From: an uncultured bacterium
Lineage (GTDB): Bacteria > Hydrothermota > Tepidihabitantia > Tepidihabitantales > DTDR01
Assembly (NCBI GenBank): GCA_938040315.1
Contig: CALHQW010000025.1
Span: 1 to 64,000 of the forward strand
Direction: 5' to 3'
Length of the DNA stretch: 64,000 nucleotides
Part shown: positions 10,289 through 64,000 of the stretch, one piece after another
Numbering within the stretch: position 1 is the first letter of the stretch
Layout of the letters: the number at the start of each line of letters is the position of its first letter
The notes under the pieces: generated by a model
What the model saw: only the letters and a program-made list of their open reading frames with translations
The model's database searches: none
What the model was told of the DNA's origin: nothing
Position numbers and translations under genes: made by a program

Positions 10289-11274
10289 TGGTTGAAGCCA
10301 GATATTATAAAAAATTAGAAGATAATAAGGTTCAATGTGAACTCTGTCCCAATTACTGTGTTATTAGTGATAATAAATATGGTCGTTGTTTAGGAAGAAA
10401 AAATATTGATGGAAAACTTTATGCCCTAAATTATGGAGAAGTTGTTTCTTATGCGATTGATCCGATGGAGAAAAAACCTTTATATCATTTTTATCCAGGA
10501 AAAGAGATATTTTCCGTTGCTACTTATGGTTGTAATTTACTCTGTCCCTTTTGTCAGAATTGGGAAATCTCCCAGAACCGAGTAAAAGGAATCTATTTAT
10601 CACCCGAAGATTTGATAAAAATTGTTGAAAGGGAAAGATGCGAATTTATTGCTTATACCTATACTGAACCTCTTATCTGGTTTGAATATCTTTTGGATGT
10701 GATGAAATTAGCAAAAGAGAAAAATATCAAAAATGTTTTAGTCACCAATGGAATGATTAATGAAGAGCCTTTAAAAGAACTTTTGCCTTATATTTCGGCA
10801 ATGAATATTGACCTAAAATCAATCAAAGAAGATTTTTATAAAAATTTTATCAAAGGCGATTTGAAGACGGTATTAAGGACAATTGAGATAAGCAAAGATT
10901 TTTGTCATATTGAGATAACCAATCTTTTAATACCAACAAAGAACGATACCGAAGAAGAGATAAAAGAACTGGTTTTATTTGTGAGCAATTTAAAGAAAAG
11001 TATTCCTTTACATTTTTCAAGATATTTTCCCCATTATAAATGCTCCTTTCCACCGACACCGGTAGAGACACTGATAAAAGCCTATAATATCGCCAAGGAG
11101 AAACTTTATTATGTTTATTTAGGAAATGTTTTTGGTCTAGAAATTGGTCAGGATACCTTTTGTCCGGACTGTGGAAATCTATTAATTGAAAGAAATTATT
11201 ATCATATTAAAATTATTGGTTTAAAAGATAAAAGATGTAATAAATGTGAAAGGAAGATTGAAATAGTTTTTTGA
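10288..11274 (+). CDS. amrS: AmmeMemoRadiSam-system radical SAM protein
   Basis: 328 residues. The radical SAM cluster motif is CNLLCPFCQNW (Cx3Cx2C). It is preceded by an N-terminal CELCPNYC and GRCLGRKN region and followed by a C-terminal zinc-ribbon-like pair (CPDCGNLL, CNKCERK). This layout matches the AmrS family, whose reaction is not well established. Other family signatures are YTYTEPLIWFEY and HFSRYFPHYK. Its usual partners Memo and AMMECR1 are not seen here. It overlaps the apbE stop codon by one base and is followed after 10 bp by a DUF4321 gene with GGAGG. Confidence 0.9.
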   Translation: MVEARYYKKLEDNKVQCELCPNYCVISDNKYGRCLGRKNIDGKLYALNYGEVVSYAIDPMEKKPLYHFYPGKEIFSVATYGCNLLCPFCQNWEISQNRVKGIYLSPEDLIKIVERERCEFIAYTYTEPLIWFEYLLDVMKLAKEKNIKNVLVTNGMINEEPLKELLPYISAMNIDLKSIKEDFYKNFIKGDLKTVLRTIEISKDFCHIEITNLLIPTKNDTEEEIKELVLFVSNLKKSIPLHFSRYFPHYKCSFPPTPVETLIKAYNIAKEKLYYVYLGNVFGLEIGQDTFCPDCGNLLIERNYYHIKIIGLKDKRCNKCERKIEIVF

Positions 11275-56784: not shown

Positions 56785-56940
56785 ATGTGTTGCCAAGTAT
56801 GTAATCTTTTTAACTTTTGTAAAAATAAGAATGAGAGTTGTTGTGAGAAATGTAAATATTTTGATTCTTGCATGGCGATGACTAAGGAGGATAAAAGAGA
56901 AAAGATGATTTATAATAAGAAATTAAAAAAAAGGAAATAA
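56785..56940 (+). CDS. Cys-rich mini-protein 1
   Basis: 51 residues beginning MCCQVCNLFNFC, 1 bp after the speB-like stop. Eight cysteines fall into two modules of the form CC-x2-C-x5-C (CCQVCNLFNFC and CCEKCKYFDSC), followed by a basic tail (KEDKREKMIYNKKLKKRK). The regular spacing suggests metal binding, perhaps zinc or an Fe-S cluster. It is paralogous to the next gene. No Shine-Dalgarno is visible, so translation may be coupled to the preceding gene. Function unknown. Confidence 0.65.
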   Translation: MCCQVCNLFNFCKNKNESCCEKCKYFDSCMAMTKEDKREKMIYNKKLKKRK

Positions 56941-56952
56941 AAGGAGGAGAAG

Positions 56953-57129
56953 ATGTGCTGTGGAATCTGCCCAGAATACGATGATTGTGAAAAGTTAGAA
57001 AGATTAAAGAACTACTGTTGTGAAGAATGTCCGGATTATGAAGAATGTATAGGCGGAGCAAGAGAAGATTTTTATGATTTTAAATATGATTTTAAAGAGG
57101 ATTACGATAGTGAGGAGGAAGATTTTTAG
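56953..57129 (+). CDS. Cys-rich mini-protein 2
   Basis: 58 residues with a strong AAGGAGGAGAAG before the ATG. It has the same two CC-x2-C-x5-C modules as its upstream neighbour (CCGICPEYDDC and CCEECPDYEEC), but the tail is highly acidic (about residues 38-58, FKYDFKEDYDSEEEDF) where the neighbour's is basic. The opposite charges and tandem position suggest the two may interact or form a pair. Function unknown; metal binding is inferred from Cys spacing. Confidence 0.75.
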   Translation: MCCGICPEYDDCEKLERLKNYCCEECPDYEECIGGAREDFYDFKYDFKEDYDSEEEDF

Positions 57130-57141
57130 TTTTTCCATTTA

Positions 57142-57170
57142 TTGACTTTAATTTTAAATTTTTTTATTAT
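57142..57170 (+). promoter_or_regulatory. Promoter of the PPIase-propeller operon
   Basis: TTGACT (57142-57147), a 17-nt spacer and TATTAT (57165-57170). The leader is about 25 nt and carries AAGGAG before the ATG at 57203. Confidence 0.55.
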
Positions 57171-57202: not shown

Positions 57203-57997
57203 ATGAAGAGAGTGATCACTTTTTTCTTACTTTTGTGTGGATTTTTCTCTTGTCAGGAAGAGAAACCAGTAATAAAAATTGGTAATAAAAAGATTACTAA
57301 GGATGAAATTCTTGCGCAAATTCCCCAGGAGGTTAATTTAAATGAACAAAATTTGATGTCAATCTTAGAAAGAATTGTAAATAGTGAACTTATTTATCTG
57401 GCTGCTCAAAAAAGGGGGTTAACTAAGGATAAGAGGTTACAAATGAAATTAAAAGCCTTAGAAAGGGATTTCTTCGCTAACGCCCTCATTGAAGAAGAAG
57501 CAAAAAAGATTTCCATCTCGCAGAAAGAAATAGTTGACTATTATAATCAACATAAAGAAGATTTTCTTTCGGAGATTAAAATTAGAAGGATCGTTGTTTA
57601 TGATGATGATTTGGCAAATAGAATTTATGAGGAGTTAAAAGGTGGAAGAGATTTTGTTTCCTTAGCAAAGGAATACTCTCAAGACCAACTTTTGCCAAGA
57701 GGAGAAGAATCTAAATATTTTCCAAGAGGATTTTTAACCGATCCTATCTTGGAAGAGGAGATTTTTTCTTTGAAAATTAATGAGTTTACTTCACCAATAA
57801 AATCACAAGAAGGATATCAGATTATTCAATTAGTGGATAAAAAGAAAGTGAAGAAAGATATTTCCTTACAGGAAGTAGAAGATTATATTAAACAGATATT
57901 ACAATATAAAAAAGGTTATGAAATGTTGAATAAAATGCTTTTAGATTTGAGAGAAAAATACAAAGTGAGTTATTATCCGGAAAATTTCTTTAAATGA
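57203..57997 (+). CDS. Parvulin-type peptidylprolyl isomerase lipoprotein
   Basis: 264 residues. The lipoprotein signal ends LLCGFFSC (Cys17). An N-terminal SurA/PrsA-like helical domain (about 22-115) with KKITKDEILAQIPQEV is followed by a PpiC rotamase domain (about 115-215: FVSLAKEYSQDQLLPRGE and FTSPIKSQEGYQIIQLVDK) and a C-terminal helix. It probably folds outer-membrane or periplasmic proteins. The gene overlaps the next, a second PPIase, by 4 bp (ATGA). Confidence 0.9.
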   Translation: MKRVITFFLLLCGFFSCQEEKPVIKIGNKKITKDEILAQIPQEVNLNEQNLMSILERIVNSELIYLAAQKRGLTKDKRLQMKLKALERDFFANALIEEEAKKISISQKEIVDYYNQHKEDFLSEIKIRRIVVYDDDLANRIYEELKGGRDFVSLAKEYSQDQLLPRGEESKYFPRGFLTDPILEEEIFSLKINEFTSPIKSQEGYQIIQLVDKKKVKKDISLQEVEDYIKQILQYKKGYEMLNKMLLDLREKYKVSYYPENFFK

Positions 57998-59208
57998 TAT
58001 ATTTTTTAATATTTTTTCTTTTCTCCTCCTTTTCTTACGATTATATTGTTGCTTATGTGGATGATGAGATTATTCTTTATTCCGAATTTCAAAAAAACTA
58101 TTTTTTACTAAAAGAATTTTCCTCTCCCCTTATTGATACCAATCTTTTAAAAGATTCTTTATTAAATAGTTTGATTAATGGAAAAATTATTCTGAAAGAA
58201 GCGGAAAAAGAAACAATTGAGATAAAGGAAAAGGAATTGGAGAATATTTGGAAAGAAAGGTTAGAAAAGATAAAAGAAAATTTTTTAACCGACGAGACTT
58301 TATTAGAAAAGGCAAGAGAATTTATTATAAATAATCTTCGTCAGGAATTGTTAATTCAAAAATTGTTGGCAAAAAAAAATCGTTTAAATATTACGATTAA
58401 TCCTTGGGAATTAAAAGAGTTTTATGAAGAGATAAAAGATTCTTTGGCAAAAAAACCGGCAGTTTGTGAGATTGCTCATATCTTTTTGCCAATTTTACCC
58501 AGTGAAGAGAAAGAAAGGAAGGCTCAAAGAAGGATCAGCGAGATTTACGAAATCTTACTTAGAGGTGGCGATTTTGAAGAGCTTTGTAAGAGTTTTTCTG
58601 ATGATAAAAAGACAAAAACGAAAGGAGGTTATTTGGGTGAATTTTTAATTGATAGTTTATCTTTAGAATTTCAAAAGGCTTTGAAGGAGTTAAAAGTTGG
58701 CGAATTTTCTCCTCCTCTGAGAAGTGAAAAGGGATATCATATTGTGAAAAAATTGGGTGAGACAAAAAACCGAGTTAAAATTGCTCACCTTTTTGTAGAA
58801 GTACCGATAGATAAAGAAGATACTTTACAGACAAAAAAATTAATTCTAAAAATAAGAGAAAAAGCCATCAAAGGTGAGGATTTTGGAATTTTGGCAAAAG
58901 AATATTCTTATGATTTAGAAACCAAAGAAAAGGGAGGCTACCTCGGAGAATTTGTTATTACCTTTCTTTTTTCACCCTTTAAAGAAGTCTGTGAAAAACT
59001 GGATAGCGGTGAAATCTCTGAACCAGTTTTATCAAAAGAAGGTTTCCATTTAATAAAAATGTTGAGAAAAGAGAAAGAAAGGATTTTGTCTTTTTTGGAG
59101 ATTCAAGAGGATTTGAGAAATTTTCTCTATCAAAAGAAATTGATAGCAATTATTAATGAATATTTAAGAGAAGTAAAGGAAAATCATTTTATAAAAGTGA
59201 ATTTTTGA
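57994..59208 (+). CDS. SurA-like peptidylprolyl isomerase with two rotamase domains
   Basis: 404 residues. A signal peptide is followed by a SurA N-terminal domain (YIVAYVDDEIILYSEFQKNY, about 12-150) and two PpiC domains. The first is about 150-250 (FEELCKSFSDDKKTKTKGGY, GEFSPPLRSEKGYHIVKKLG) and the second about 255-355 (FGILAKEYSYDLETKEKGGY, GEISEPVLSKEGFHLIKML). The two-rotamase layout matches SurA, the chaperone for outer-membrane protein transport. Its stop overlaps the next start (TGATG). Confidence 0.92.
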   Translation: MIYFLIFFLFSSFSYDYIVAYVDDEIILYSEFQKNYFLLKEFSSPLIDTNLLKDSLLNSLINGKIILKEAEKETIEIKEKELENIWKERLEKIKENFLTDETLLEKAREFIINNLRQELLIQKLLAKKNRLNITINPWELKEFYEEIKDSLAKKPAVCEIAHIFLPILPSEEKERKAQRRISEIYEILLRGGDFEELCKSFSDDKKTKTKGGYLGEFLIDSLSLEFQKALKELKVGEFSPPLRSEKGYHIVKKLGETKNRVKIAHLFVEVPIDKEDTLQTKKLILKIREKAIKGEDFGILAKEYSYDLETKEKGGYLGEFVITFLFSPFKEVCEKLDSGEISEPVLSKEGFHLIKMLRKEKERILSFLEIQEDLRNFLYQKKLIAIINEYLREVKENHFIKVNF

Positions 59209-60542
59209 TGTTAGTAATTCTTCTTTTTCTCTTTTTTAGTAATTTGCCGGTTGATTCTTTTAGTTATTCCCTTTGGGGTGATAAGGAAATTCCAATTTTT
59301 ATATATTTTAAATTTAAAAATATTCCGGCAACTTTAAAAATTGATTGGGGCGACGGTAAAATTGAGAGTTTAGAAGTAAAATGGGTAATTTATGAAGCAG
59401 AACATAAATACGAAAAACCGGGCAAATATATAATTAAAATAAAAATTGATAAAGATTATTTTATGACTACTGATACGGTTACTATTTTTGAAGAGATTTT
59501 TATTGGAAGAGTAAATTTAGCAGATAGGGTTTATAGCAGTTGTGCAATTGATAAAGAAGAGAATATTTATCTTGGCGATGTCAAAGGAAATTTTTATTCC
59601 TTTAATTTATTAGGTCAAATGAGATTTAATTTTCTTGCCAGTGGCAAAATTTATAGTAGTCCCTTAATTGTTGATACTTTGATCTATTTTGGTGCCGATT
59701 CTTTTTTATACTGTTTAACTAAAAATGGAAAATTGGTTTTCCAAAATAAATTATCAGGTGAAATTTATAACACTCCCACTTTCTTGCCACCGGATAAAGT
59801 GGTTATCTCTTCTGATGATGGTAACCTTTATATTTTTAATCTTTTTGGTAAGAAGATAAAGGAGATAAAATTTCCTGCGGAATTGAGTGATATTTCAGTT
59901 GATGAAAAAAATAATTTGATTTTTTCTTCTGGTTCCCAAGTTTATTCTTTAAATTCTAAAGGGAAAATTAACTTTAAATTTAATTCCTTAGAAGATGATG
60001 AATTTTTTCCAGCACCAACAATTACTAAAGATTATCTTTTGTGTGGTTGTGAAGATGGTTATTTATATTTGTTAGATAAGAAAAAGGGTAAATTAATAAA
60101 AAGAATTGCTACTTTTGATGAAGATGCAATCAAGACTGAAGTGATTATTGATGAAGAAGGAAAGTTTTATTTTGGTGACGACGGTGGAAAATTATATGTT
60201 TACGATGGTAAATTGATTTCTCTTTTTGAAGCGGAGGATGCGATTATTTCTACTCCTTTAATTATTAAAAGGGATGGTAAAAAAATAATTTTTATTTTGG
60301 ATGAAATGGGCTATCTTTATGCCTTAAATGAAAAGGGAAAAATATTATTTAAAATGGAAATCTGTTCAAGCGAGAAAGATTTATACCAAACTCCCTCTTT
60401 TCTTTTTGTTCAGGATAAATTAATTATTCCATCTTGGGATGGTTATTTATATGCTTTTCGAATAGAAGGGGAGGTTATAAAAAGTGAATGGTTCACTTAT
60501 CGGGCTAACTTTTCTCGTAATGGCAAAATAAATAAAAAATGA
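59208..60542 (+). CDS. PKD-domain / PQQ-like beta-propeller protein
   Basis: 444 residues from ATG at 59208, which overlaps the previous stop. A signal segment (1-14) is followed by a PKD-like domain (about 20-95) with IDWGDGKIESLEV and AEHKYEKPGKYIIKI. The rest (about 100-440) is a PQQ-type beta-propeller, seen as repeated blades such as IDKEENIYLGDVKGNFYSF, LIYFGADSFLYCLTKNGKLV and LLCGCEDGYLYLLDKKKGKL. It is probably periplasmic or cell-surface and may bind protein or ligand; the function is not known. It shares the operon with two PPIases and two propeller-like proteins. Confidence 0.8.
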   Translation: MLVILLFLFFSNLPVDSFSYSLWGDKEIPIFIYFKFKNIPATLKIDWGDGKIESLEVKWVIYEAEHKYEKPGKYIIKIKIDKDYFMTTDTVTIFEEIFIGRVNLADRVYSSCAIDKEENIYLGDVKGNFYSFNLLGQMRFNFLASGKIYSSPLIVDTLIYFGADSFLYCLTKNGKLVFQNKLSGEIYNTPTFLPPDKVVISSDDGNLYIFNLFGKKIKEIKFPAELSDISVDEKNNLIFSSGSQVYSLNSKGKINFKFNSLEDDEFFPAPTITKDYLLCGCEDGYLYLLDKKKGKLIKRIATFDEDAIKTEVIIDEEGKFYFGDDGGKLYVYDGKLISLFEAEDAIISTPLIIKRDGKKIIFILDEMGYLYALNEKGKILFKMEICSSEKDLYQTPSFLFVQDKLIIPSWDGYLYAFRIEGEVIKSEWFTYRANFSRNGKINKK

Positions 60543-61750
60543 TAATTATTTTGCCGTTACTTTTTTCTTACTTTTCTCAAGCCAATATTTATGGAGAATT
60601 CATTTTGACCAATGAGATTGGTTCTTTTATTCTTCCTAAATTCTCTTTCTCTTCGCCTTTGGAGAGAAAAAAAAGTTTACTTTTTTTAGAAAATTATAAT
60701 AAAATTATCCTCTATTCGGAAGGAGTCTTTAAACCATTAATTTTTGATATTAAAGGAAATTATTTAGGTTATTTGGAGACCGTCTTTTATTATGCTCAGA
60801 AGGTTGAGTATCAAAAGAAAGAAATGGTTGTTCTTCCGAAAGGTAATATATTAGGATTTTATACTTTAAAAAATAAAAATCTTAATCTTTATCGTAAATT
60901 ATTGATAAATGAATATATCGAAAGTTTTGATTTTCTTACAAATCACGATTCTCTTTTTATTGTTTTAAGTTGTAGTGATAAAAAAGAGAACAAAATAAAA
61001 ATTTATAATCAAAATTTTAAATTAATCACCGAAAGGGTAATTGATGAAAAATTTTTTATCAAAAATCTTGATACTTTCCTTTTGGCAATTGGAAAGGATT
61101 TAAAAAGAATAATGCTCTTAAATAGAAATTTACAAATCCTTTGGGAATTTAATTTAAAAGATTTATTTATTAATGATTTTGCCCTTTGGGAAAGTCTTTT
61201 AATTTTAGTTTGTGGTAATTTAAACCAGGATAAAGGAAGGCTTTATTTTTTATCGTTTAAAAAGGGTAAAATTTTAGAAACCTTCCCCTTTGATTATTTT
61301 TATCCCCTTGCTTTTAATAGTATAAAGGTTGCTGATATTGATAACGATACCGAAAAGGAAATTGTGGTGACCGCTTCCGGCAGAAAGGGAGAAATAATTA
61401 TTTTTAAAATAATAAAAGATAAATTAATCTTAAAGAAAAAAAGAACCTTTTCTTCTTTTACCTCCTTAGTAAATATGGTTAATGTCCAGATTTTAGGTGT
61501 TGATGATTTTATTTATGATAAAAATAATAATAAAGAGTTAATTTTATTAATTACTTATGAAGAAAAAAAAGATGTTTTTTTATTGAATAATTTTAATTCT
61601 GGCGAAATTCTGCTTTTAGATAATAAATTTAAAGATATTGCTGATTTAGATCTGGATTTTCCTCTTAGCGATTTTTTAATCCTTAATCAAAAAAATAAGA
61701 AAAGAACAGTTTTAGTTGTCCTTACGGAAAAATTAAAATTTTATGAATAG
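60539..61750 (+). CDS. Exported propeller-like protein with VCBS/FG-GAP-like motif
   Basis: 403 residues, not recognised as a family. A signal peptide (1-15) is followed by Tyr/Phe/Leu-rich strands throughout, consistent with a beta-propeller. Around residues 260-285 IKVADIDNDTEKEIVVTASG matches the calcium-binding-type repeat of VCBS/FG-GAP proteins (DxDxDxxxE). The gene overlaps the previous one by 4 bp (ATGA) and the next by 8 bp. Role unknown; likely part of an envelope sensing or scaffold system with its neighbours. Confidence 0.65.
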   Translation: MIIILPLLFSYFSQANIYGEFILTNEIGSFILPKFSFSSPLERKKSLLFLENYNKIILYSEGVFKPLIFDIKGNYLGYLETVFYYAQKVEYQKKEMVVLPKGNILGFYTLKNKNLNLYRKLLINEYIESFDFLTNHDSLFIVLSCSDKKENKIKIYNQNFKLITERVIDEKFFIKNLDTFLLAIGKDLKRIMLLNRNLQILWEFNLKDLFINDFALWESLLILVCGNLNQDKGRLYFLSFKKGKILETFPFDYFYPLAFNSIKVADIDNDTEKEIVVTASGRKGEIIIFKIIKDKLILKKKRTFSSFTSLVNMVNVQILGVDDFIYDKNNNKELILLITYEEKKDVFLLNNFNSGEILLLDNKFKDIADLDLDFPLSDFLILNQKNKKRTVLVVLTEKLKFYE

Positions 61751-63725
61751 CCTATTTCTTCTTTTTATCCTTAATCTTTCCTCTTATTTCATTTTTTTAA
61801 AAGGAGAAAAAGGGAGAAAAATTGATGAACGAAAAATCAAGAAAAATTTGGTAAAACAGTATATTTCCCAAAAGGATTGGAAAATTTTTTCCCAGATGGA
61901 AGATATTGTTTATCAAAAAGATATTGAAAACTTTCTTTATGGATTTTTGAAAAATAAAGTTTATCAAATTAAAAAAAGGGAGCCAGTAAATTTATATTTC
62001 CGAATTAAAAAGTTGGCCTTAATGGAAGGTAAAAAAGAAATTTACCTTATTTTGATTGGTGAAAGGGAGTTTACGGTATTAAATAAAAATTTAGATATTC
62101 TTTATTATAGAGACTTTGGTGAAAAGATAGAAAATTCTATTTTGGAAGATCGAAATTTTAATAATGAAGAGGAAGTTTATCTGATTTTTAAAAATAAAAT
62201 CTTTTATTTTTCTTTTGAAAAAGAAATGTTTTGGGAATTAAATAATAATTGGATAAATCCTCAATGGTTGGTCAGCGACGGGCATTCATTATTTCTTGTC
62301 TTCGCTGATTCAATAGTTATCCTGGAGGAAAAATTAGAAACCAAAAAAATTTATCCTAAAAAAAATGAGAAATTTATTTTACTCACTTTAAAAAAGGATG
62401 GTTTTTTAATCCTCAGTAAGTTAGAAAATCGTTCGGTTGTTGCCTATGATAAAAATAAAAGAATAGAAATCTTTGGTAATTTTGATAAAATAGAAGGAAA
62501 AATTTTTAAAGATGGTTTTTTAATTAAAGCGGATAATAATCTTTTTTTTATTAACCGTTCTCTTTCTTATTTTGAAAAGATTATTGAACACTCTCAAATA
62601 AAGGAAATTAAAGATTATAAAATCTTTGATTTAAATGGCGATGGAAAAGAAGACCTTATTATAAGTGATGGTAATTATCTTTTTTACTTTTTAAACAATT
62701 CCTTAATCTTAGAAGAGGAACAAAGAAATTATTATCAAAGATTAATTAATCGGGTAAGAATAGGAAATTTATATGGTTATCAAGATTTGCTTATAACCCT
62801 TTTAAATCTTAGTGCGCAAGTAGGGTTACCTTTTTTAGAAATTGAGAAAAAAATTGAAAAGGCAGTTAGAAAATATTATGTTGCAAAAATCCAACAACAA
62901 TTATTTTTAAGTAGTTTTTTATCGGTCTTTTTTGTTCTTTTTATTATGCTATTTATTAGGCCAATTTTTCTCAAAGTTAAAAATAAAAAATGGCGATTGG
63001 AAAACCGTTCTTTGCCTCAGTTGATTAAGATTATTGGCGATTTAGTTGCTTTAAATCATAACTATTTAATGAAAGGTAATTTTTTAGGAGCCCAGAATCG
63101 AATTAAAAAAATTAGCGAAGATTTTAAATTAGTAGAAGAAGAAGTTTTATATCTAAAAGAAACCTTGGAACCCAAATTTTTTATGGAAAATTATTTATCC
63201 CTTTTAAAGAAAATTTTTGATAACAAAAATATTGTTAATTTAATTACCTATCTAAAAGAGATAAACAAAAGTTTAGAGAAAAAAATGGTTTTTCAAAAGG
63301 TTAATTCTTTTGAGATAGAGGAGTATCTTAAAAAAGAAGGATATTATTTACTACAAGTTTACGACCCTTTTATTGGTGAAGATAATGAGAGTTATAAAGT
63401 TTTTTTAGATAAAAAAATAGAAAATTTTTTGATCCACTTGATAACCGATCATTTAAAATATGCTGGAAAAAAGGCGGTTATTATTTTAGAGAAGAAAGTT
63501 ATTACTGATTGGCAGAAGAAGATTATCTTACATTTTTATTCCGATGCGGAAAGTGAGATTGATTTAGAAAAAGGTCATTTAGCAGAAGAGATAAGGGAGA
63601 TAAAAAATAATTATTTTGAATATTTAAATATTAATAAGGGTTTTCAATTAGAAGAAAAGTTAGTTCTTATTTTTTCGGATTTAATTGGTATTATTGAAGG
63701 AATAATTAAAAGGAGTAAAATTTAA
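61743..63725 (+). CDS. Membrane sensor protein with divergent histidine-kinase-like C-terminus
   Basis: 660 residues. A signal or membrane segment (about 3-18) precedes an extracytoplasmic region of about 370 residues with propeller-like strands and a FDLNGDGKEDLIISDGN FG-GAP-type motif (about 297-313). One membrane helix (about 392-412, SFLSVFFVLFIMLFI) leads to a cytoplasmic part. That part has a helical region with ALNHNYLMKGNFLGAQNRI, whose His could be a phosphoacceptor, then LIHLITDHLKYAGKKAVII, which resembles an N-box. No clear G-box is seen, so kinase activity is uncertain. A receiver-like protein gene follows 3 bp later. Confidence 0.6.
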   Translation: MNSLFLLFILNLSSYFIFLKGEKGRKIDERKIKKNLVKQYISQKDWKIFSQMEDIVYQKDIENFLYGFLKNKVYQIKKREPVNLYFRIKKLALMEGKKEIYLILIGEREFTVLNKNLDILYYRDFGEKIENSILEDRNFNNEEEVYLIFKNKIFYFSFEKEMFWELNNNWINPQWLVSDGHSLFLVFADSIVILEEKLETKKIYPKKNEKFILLTLKKDGFLILSKLENRSVVAYDKNKRIEIFGNFDKIEGKIFKDGFLIKADNNLFFINRSLSYFEKIIEHSQIKEIKDYKIFDLNGDGKEDLIISDGNYLFYFLNNSLILEEEQRNYYQRLINRVRIGNLYGYQDLLITLLNLSAQVGLPFLEIEKKIEKAVRKYYVAKIQQQLFLSSFLSVFFVLFIMLFIRPIFLKVKNKKWRLENRSLPQLIKIIGDLVALNHNYLMKGNFLGAQNRIKKISEDFKLVEEEVLYLKETLEPKFFMENYLSLLKKIFDNKNIVNLITYLKEINKSLEKKMVFQKVNSFEIEEYLKKEGYYLLQVYDPFIGEDNESYKVFLDKKIENFLIHLITDHLKYAGKKAVIILEKKVITDWQKKIILHFYSDAESEIDLEKGHLAEEIREIKNNYFEYLNINKGFQLEEKLVLIFSDLIGIIEGIIKRSKI

Positions 63726-63728
63726 TAA

Positions 63729-64000
63729 ATGGAAAAGCCTTTAATTTTAGTAGTTGATGATTTAGAGGAGGCATATTGGGGATTGATAAATTTCATTAAA
63801 GAGAAGGAGGAAAAGATTTATCAAAATTTTGAATTTCTTTATTTTCAAGATTATTTTCAATTAAAGGAGTGGTATTCGAAGAATCGGGGGAAATTTGTTT
63901 CTTTAATTATTCAAGATGTTGATTATACTCATCTAAAAGATAAGAATAGACTTTTAAAGCAGAAAGATGGGCAATTTTTCCATTTAGAATTTTTTGATGA
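63729..64000 (+). CDS. Response-regulator receiver-like protein (partial, cut by window end)
   Basis: The first 90 codons are present and the gene runs off the window. The start MEKPLILVVDDLEEAYWGL has the acidic pair of a receiver domain, and VSLIIQDVDYTHL has the strand-plus-Asp arrangement of the phosphorylation site. The spacing and the IQDVDYT sequence are atypical, so it may be a diverged receiver or the N-terminus of a longer regulator. It starts 3 bp after the sensor-like gene, which supports a two-component pair. Confidence 0.6.
   Translation, partial: MEKPLILVVDDLEEAYWGLINFIKEKEEKIYQNFEFLYFQDYFQLKEWYSKNRGKFVSLIIQDVDYTHLKDKNRLLKQKDGQFFHLEFFD

Follow-up and report, generated by a model that had tools for sequence, protein, structure and literature searches.

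The last part of the 64,000-nucleotide stretch analysed here (the window; positions 1 to 64,000 of contig CALHQW010000025.1) carries an operon whose fifth and sixth genes encode a membrane sensor and a sigma-54 activator, the latter a bacterial enhancer-binding protein (bEBP). Comparison across related genomes indicates that the two constitute a real, conserved and non-canonical sensor/sigma-54-activator pair. The predicted folds are those of a histidine kinase for the cytoplasmic part of the sensor and of a receiver for the N-terminal domain of the activator, which agrees with an earlier note on this DNA that had proposed a diverged sensor/receiver pair. The explanation we favour, with confidence about evenly balanced, is a non-canonical two-component system of WOR-3 bacteria in which a sensor with histidine-kinase fold would act on a receiver pocket and thereby on a sigma-54 activator. 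The window comes from the genome of an uncultured WOR-3 bacterium (G000), with an assembly of 1.49 Mb in 40 contigs that is 98% complete. The promoter, genes and domains of the operon given by window coordinates lie on the + strand.

The sensor

Gene 5 (61743..63725) encodes a protein of 660 amino acids with an extracytoplasmic propeller-like region, one membrane helix and a degenerate histidine-kinase-like cytoplasmic domain (63003..63722, supported by alignment, AlphaFold2 and Foldseek). The hydropathy profile displays a single strong membrane helix at approximately residues 387-408 (62901..62966). The part outside this helix has FG-GAP-like traces, and the part inside it comprises 240 residues. 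The AlphaFold model of the inner domain, built from a seven-row alignment, has a pLDDT of 87.7 and a pTM of 0.86. The 50 matches listed in a Foldseek search against the PDB are histidine-kinase-fold proteins with EL346 at the top (E 2.7e-5), and they include a bacterial phosphotransferase. When the catalytic and ATP-binding (CA) part is taken alone, TMt reaches up to 0.6, against PhoQ. The model thus predicts the fold of histidine kinases, with a dimerisation and histidine phosphotransfer (DHp) part followed by a CA part, as the kinase-like assignment in the earlier note had presupposed. A viral fold library gave weak matches, with viral histidine kinases best among them. Profile searches against the PDB with this domain and with the N-terminal domain of the activator rendered only chance-level or repeat matches.

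Sensor sequences are few, ten in all from four genera, and several positions are invariant in them. The motif H439-N440-x3-K-G-N is placed in a helical hairpin ahead of the CA part, and H439 may be a phospho-histidine. Where a kinase has its N-box helix, the Asn pair of NxxxN has given way to an invariant H565xxxD569, and T588, W590, S600, D601 and H612 are likewise invariant. The CA-like domain is devoid of the G1 and G2 glycine boxes, with neither GxG nor GxGLGL. The absence of a clear G-box had been noticed before and stands, while the segment then read as N-box-like is this HxxxD.

The sigma-54 activator

Only the start of gene 6 (63729..64000) is found in the window and about 1,300 bp more follow beyond it. 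The contig is 79,645 bp long and extends 15.6 kb past the window end, so the gene can be read whole: it encodes 523 amino acids, 90 of them inside the window. It consists of a receiver-like N-domain (residues 1-170), a sigma-54 AAA+ domain (183-349) and a Fis-type helix-turn-helix (481-520). The AAA+ domain matches PF00158 with an E-value of 1e-50 and has intact Walker motifs, GSSGVGKE, FLDEIG and GAFTGA, and HTH_8 is matched in the whole gene with an E-value of 2.4e-16. The genome encodes RpoN (G000:C32), and gene 6 is one of its three strong sigma-54 activator matches. In NCBIfam, gene 6 scores well under the cut-off of each of 25 listed models. The earlier description as a receiver-like protein therefore holds for the N-domain, whereas the gene as a whole is a sigma-54 activator and no stand-alone receiver.

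The N-domain was modelled on the orthologue in G001. The model (pLDDT 74) has the (beta-alpha)5 order with an insertion of about 30 residues after beta-3, and its Foldseek matches are receiver (REC) domains (E 1.6e-4), so a receiver fold is predicted here, as the earlier note had supposed for the downstream gene. D10 and D11 (63756-63761), D63 (63915-63917) and S117 are found at the expected receiver positions, which makes four of the five active-site residues. When its profile was compared with those of four canonical receivers from G000, the alignment covered beta-1/alpha-1 only.

Distribution of the pair and fate of the receiver pocket

The comparison set comprises 147 genomes of the phylum. 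The bEBP N-domain occurs in 20 of these and the sensor C-domain in ten. The sensor gene neighbours the bEBP gene in nine of the ten (G000, G001, G002, G003, G006, G018, G022, G024 and G027); in G025 they are found on separate contigs. The pair is in this way conserved throughout the order. D10, D11, Q62, D63, D65, H68, S117 and R119 are invariant in all ten sensor-bearing genomes. Among the ten bEBP-bearing genomes in which no sensor was detected, nine have lost the D10/D11/D63/S117/R119 set. The set is intact in G023, where there is no sensor match, and a stretch of 27 amino acids just upstream of the bEBP gene matches the C-terminal end of the sensor (E 0.047). This stretch is possibly a sensor remnant, a reading supported by its position. 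The distribution is suggestive of a sensor that acts through the receiver pocket.

Proposed mechanism and its alternatives

In the favoured explanation, a single-pass sensor with an extracytoplasmic FG-GAP/propeller-like domain would relay its signal, by way of a remodelled domain with histidine-kinase fold, to the receiver-like domain of the sigma-54 activator encoded by the next gene. The signal would pass via the acidic pocket of D10, D11, D63 and S117, most likely with the invariant H439 of the sensor as phosphoryl donor to D63, and the activator would then bind a palindromic enhancer and open sigma-54 promoters. Gene order, conservation of the pair, predicted folds, the intact GAFTGA and helix-turn-helix, the presence of RpoN and the loss of the pocket along with the sensor come from computation; the direction of the signal, the phosphotransfer, the ligand and the target in this genome are what we infer. 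Phosphotransfer from H439 to D63 is the leading reading, with a DivL-like pseudo-kinase close behind.

Several observations weigh against such a two-component system. No HisKA or HATPase_c profile match was found in the C-domain of any of the ten sensors, and the TM-scores over the query are low for the domain as a whole (about 0.23-0.38), which in the models is probably due to a differing placement of the two sub-domains. The H439 motif, HN[YF]xxKGN, does not correspond to an H-box, and the helix-turn-helix that holds it also looks TPR-like. Ordinary use of ATP is doubtful because the CA-like domain has neither the N-box Asn pair nor the G-boxes. In the activator, no Response_reg (PF00072) or other Pfam match was found in the N-domain of nine members, and the receiver Lys is replaced by V or A at a position ahead of a conserved P144. 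Because this Lys is gone, the N-domain is a pseudo-receiver as defined by active-site residues by Bourret et al. (PMC12632262), where the switching of pseudo-receivers is described as a mystery. The correlation between pocket and sensor is suggestive, not strong, because there are few independent events of sensor loss; three changes account for the sensor label on the AAA+ tree.

Much of this would also be expected if the sensor were a pseudo-kinase without ATP binding or phosphotransfer, which docks on the receiver-like domain or strips phosphate from it and in this way gates the assembly of the activator ring, comparable to DivL reading DivK~P in Caulobacter. The phosphate removed could come from acetyl phosphate or from another kinase. 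DivL is a precedent for a histidine-kinase fold without kinase activity (PMC4211667), and the genome encodes several canonical HATPase_c proteins besides its four canonical receivers; these points, together with the replaced N-box Asn, the missing G-boxes and the missing HATPase_c match, make the pseudo-kinase a serious alternative. However, the invariant His, and a full DD/D/S set found only alongside the sensor (or where its loss may be recent), fit phosphoryl chemistry better than docking, and we rate the pseudo-kinase as the less probable of the two. With similar reserve, the rebuilt nucleotide pocket (HxxxD, TxW, SD) and the Lys-less receiver could be taken to pass a signal without ordinary kinase chemistry, with an undescribed sigma-54-driven structured RNA as the direct output in relatives. 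It is more doubtful still that the cytoplasmic domain is functionally no relative of kinases and that a metal or a small ligand is bound in the remodelled pocket (HxxxD, TxW, SD, H). The invariant polar residues where a degenerate pocket should be lined go beyond mere decay of the fold, but binding is putative and the residues are known from just those ten sequences; we regard this as the least probable explanation.

The earlier note had read the whole operon as an envelope-folding or surface-sensing circuit. As one folding-stress circuit, its parvulins and propellers would handle clients and its sensor would read the load. In favour of this are the tight gene overlaps, a gene order shared by three congeneric genomes and the occurrence of PKD-propeller and FG-GAP-like genes ahead of the sensor in family f5 as well. 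In the other genomes examined, however, the two parvulin genes are located away from sensor and bEBP. Of 41 genomes searched, 40 have a relative of the SurA-like gene, and in all five loci read it comes after a second parvulin, away from the sensor/bEBP pair; one of these loci was tested by alignment. Conversely, sensor and bEBP are adjacent without parvulins in six genomes, among them G006 and genomes of family f3; in G003 the upstream side is unread, since the contig stops at the sensor. In G006 a propeller gene and an FG-GAP-like gene precede the pair. Since the parvulin pair elsewhere lies apart from the sensor/bEBP pair, the operon in the window is, on gene order, two modules joined in one genus. 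The six-gene arrangement is that of a single genus while the parvulin pair is separate across the order, and a common folding-stress circuit is therefore improbable. The joining in this genus probably couples the biogenesis of surface proteins to the sensor.

Candidate output in a related family

In family f3 there is a strong -24/-12 site about 110-220 bp 3' of the bEBP stop codon, and a 17-bp palindrome (TGCCGYATWWTGCGGCA-like) is found between the stop codon and this site. A Gibbs search for the palindrome scored 229, while the best of 31 shuffled sets reached 143, in genomes that are related to each other. The promoter is followed by an RNA of about 145 nt with three stems that closes with an intrinsic terminator. 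In the terminator stem, seven of eleven pairs have changes on both sides and 99% of the cells are paired; P1 is nearly invariant and P2 is weaker. A search of Rfam with the G018 copy gave no match. The covariance model finds the RNA in 17 of 18 f3 genomes, a count that includes G015 (weak and not beside a bEBP gene) and G017 (cut by a contig end). The copies are found at L026:12642-12834, L027:14105-14296, L075:12687-12881 and L076:1978-2169, with equivalents in L066-L074. The RNA is a candidate for a new structured RNA family, and promoter and RNA are the likely target of the bEBP in these relatives. In G003, which belongs to another sensor-bearing family, a strong palindrome match is found in the 78 bases that remain 3' of the bEBP gene.

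The covariance model with strict filters did not find the RNA in G000-G003 or G006, and in the window's own family neither the palindrome nor the RNA was found. The intergenic stretch 3' of the bEBP gene in G000 has no unusual fold (z 0.72). The candidates that did appear were rejected. The four exact matches to sigma-54 sites in G000 are all within genes. When the palindrome was searched by pattern in G000 and G006, 31 stretches were read and the best site was coding in 30 of them; the sole intergenic site, in G006, has no sigma-54 site near. The top palindrome match in the window, at position 10784, is within a coding open reading frame (ORF).

GAFTGA has been described as invariant in sigma-54 activators (PMC12316311). 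It is GAFTDA in the bEBP genes of L069-L074 (G019, G004, G009, G007, G011 and G013), in the form GAYTDA in G013, and -24/-12-like sites and the RNA are still found downstream in five of the six. A secreted BNR/Asp-box repeat protein is encoded divergently beside the sensor/bEBP locus in f3 (L026:6865-8355, L071:5917-7287 and equivalents).

Comparison with known systems

The pair shares with NtrC-family two-component systems the two neighbouring genes, an AAA+ domain with GAFTGA, a Fis helix-turn-helix and the presence of sigma-54. It differs in having no recognisable HisKA/HATPase_c and a Lys-less receiver with the insertion after beta-3, in an N-domain unmatched in Pfam. DivL-DivK likewise combines a histidine-kinase fold with a degraded ATP site, and there too the kinase-like domain and the receiver co-vary in presence: DivL has often lost its DHp-CA where there is no DivK (PMC4211667). 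The sensor described here differs from DivL in retaining the His and in having a sigma-54 activator as its partner in place of a single-domain regulator. A periplasmic propeller, a membrane helix and a cytoplasmic part with histidine-kinase fold are also found in the double-propeller sensors of the Bacteroidetes hybrid two-component systems (PMC3243724), whereas the output here is a separate bEBP, the propeller is FG-GAP-like instead of Reg_prop/YYY and the kinase is degenerate. In CbrAB-CrcZ the crcZ RNA gene is located directly 3' of cbrB (PMC10562864). The layout in family f3 is similar, with a small RNA and its sigma-54 promoter immediately after the bEBP gene, though this RNA is without Rfam match and none was detected in the family to which the window belongs.

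One activator family with and without a sensor, and with the receiver pocket kept or lost to match, offers a natural comparison, and the single adjacent promoter and RNA in the sister family could act as a readout. For the uncultured WOR-3 lineage this also defines a unit of sigma-54 signalling and adds a new candidate RNA family to seek in metatranscriptomes.

The operon and its surroundings

The operon consists of six co-directional genes from 57203 to 64000 and beyond, in the order parvulin, SurA-like, PKD/propeller, FG-GAP-like, sensor and activator, and this order is kept with near-identical spacing in the congeneric G001 and G002. Genes 1-5 overlap by 4, 4 (or 1), 4 and 8 bp and gene 6 follows after a gap of 3 bp. 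A sigma-70-type promoter (TTGACT-17-TATTAT, 57142..57170) is found upstream by consensus scan and three-genome alignment. Sites of this kind are common by chance in such scans, and the stretch around this one is almost invariant in G000, G001 and G002. Coordinates, spacing and conserved promoter agree with the chain of overlapping genes behind one promoter that had been described earlier.

Gene 1 (57203..57997) encodes a parvulin-type peptidyl-prolyl isomerase of 264 amino acids with a lipoprotein-like N-terminus (FFSCQ; PF13145 5e-13, PF00639 1.4e-11). Gene 2 (57994..59208, 404 amino acids) is SurA-like with two parvulin domains (PF00639 3e-41 in two stretches) and SurA_N, so the two parvulins of the earlier note, one of them SurA-like, are both confirmed. 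The Rotamase domain of SurA/PpiC parvulins is present in both, and they share domains and N-terminal region with that group and differ in operon partners only.

Gene 3 (59205..60542) encodes a secreted protein of 445 amino acids with a PKD-like part and a PQQ/BamB-type beta-propeller (PF13570 2.8e-33, BamB TIGR03300 3e-15). Its start is TTG, with an ATG three bases further in. Gene 4 (60539..61750) encodes an exported FG-GAP/VCBS-like protein of 403 amino acids with weak propeller matches. Of the three propeller-like proteins proposed before, the BamB/PQQ-type propeller of gene 3 is well supported. Pfam gives a weak call for PKD in gene 3, and for propellers in gene 4 and the sensor there are single weak matches only (FG-GAP-like or carrageenase-propeller). 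Sequence comparison detected no duplication between gene 4 and the outer domain of the sensor. In G006, the second gene ahead of the sensor is 35% identical to gene 3, and the gene immediately ahead of the sensor is weakly similar to gene 4.

Two tandem tiny Cys-rich ORFs (56785-56940 and 56953-57129; 51 and 58 amino acids) with a CCxxC...CCxxC pattern are located between an agmatinase-like gene and the operon. Both are present in G001 and the first one in G002. Past the window end, an intergenic stretch upstream of an FG-GAP gene (65443-65574; L008:9544-9675) has 78% identity between G000 and G002 despite a different gene on the other flank, and it carries ATACCCCCTCTTCCTATC; no unusual fold was found in the tested part. 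Downstream of the bEBP locus a glycosyltransferase gene, sometimes with an ABC transporter ATPase, is found in G000 (L008:11503-13633) and in several genomes of f3 genus g12 (L026-L028, L075 and L113), and these shared neighbours make the bEBP locus partly syntenic.

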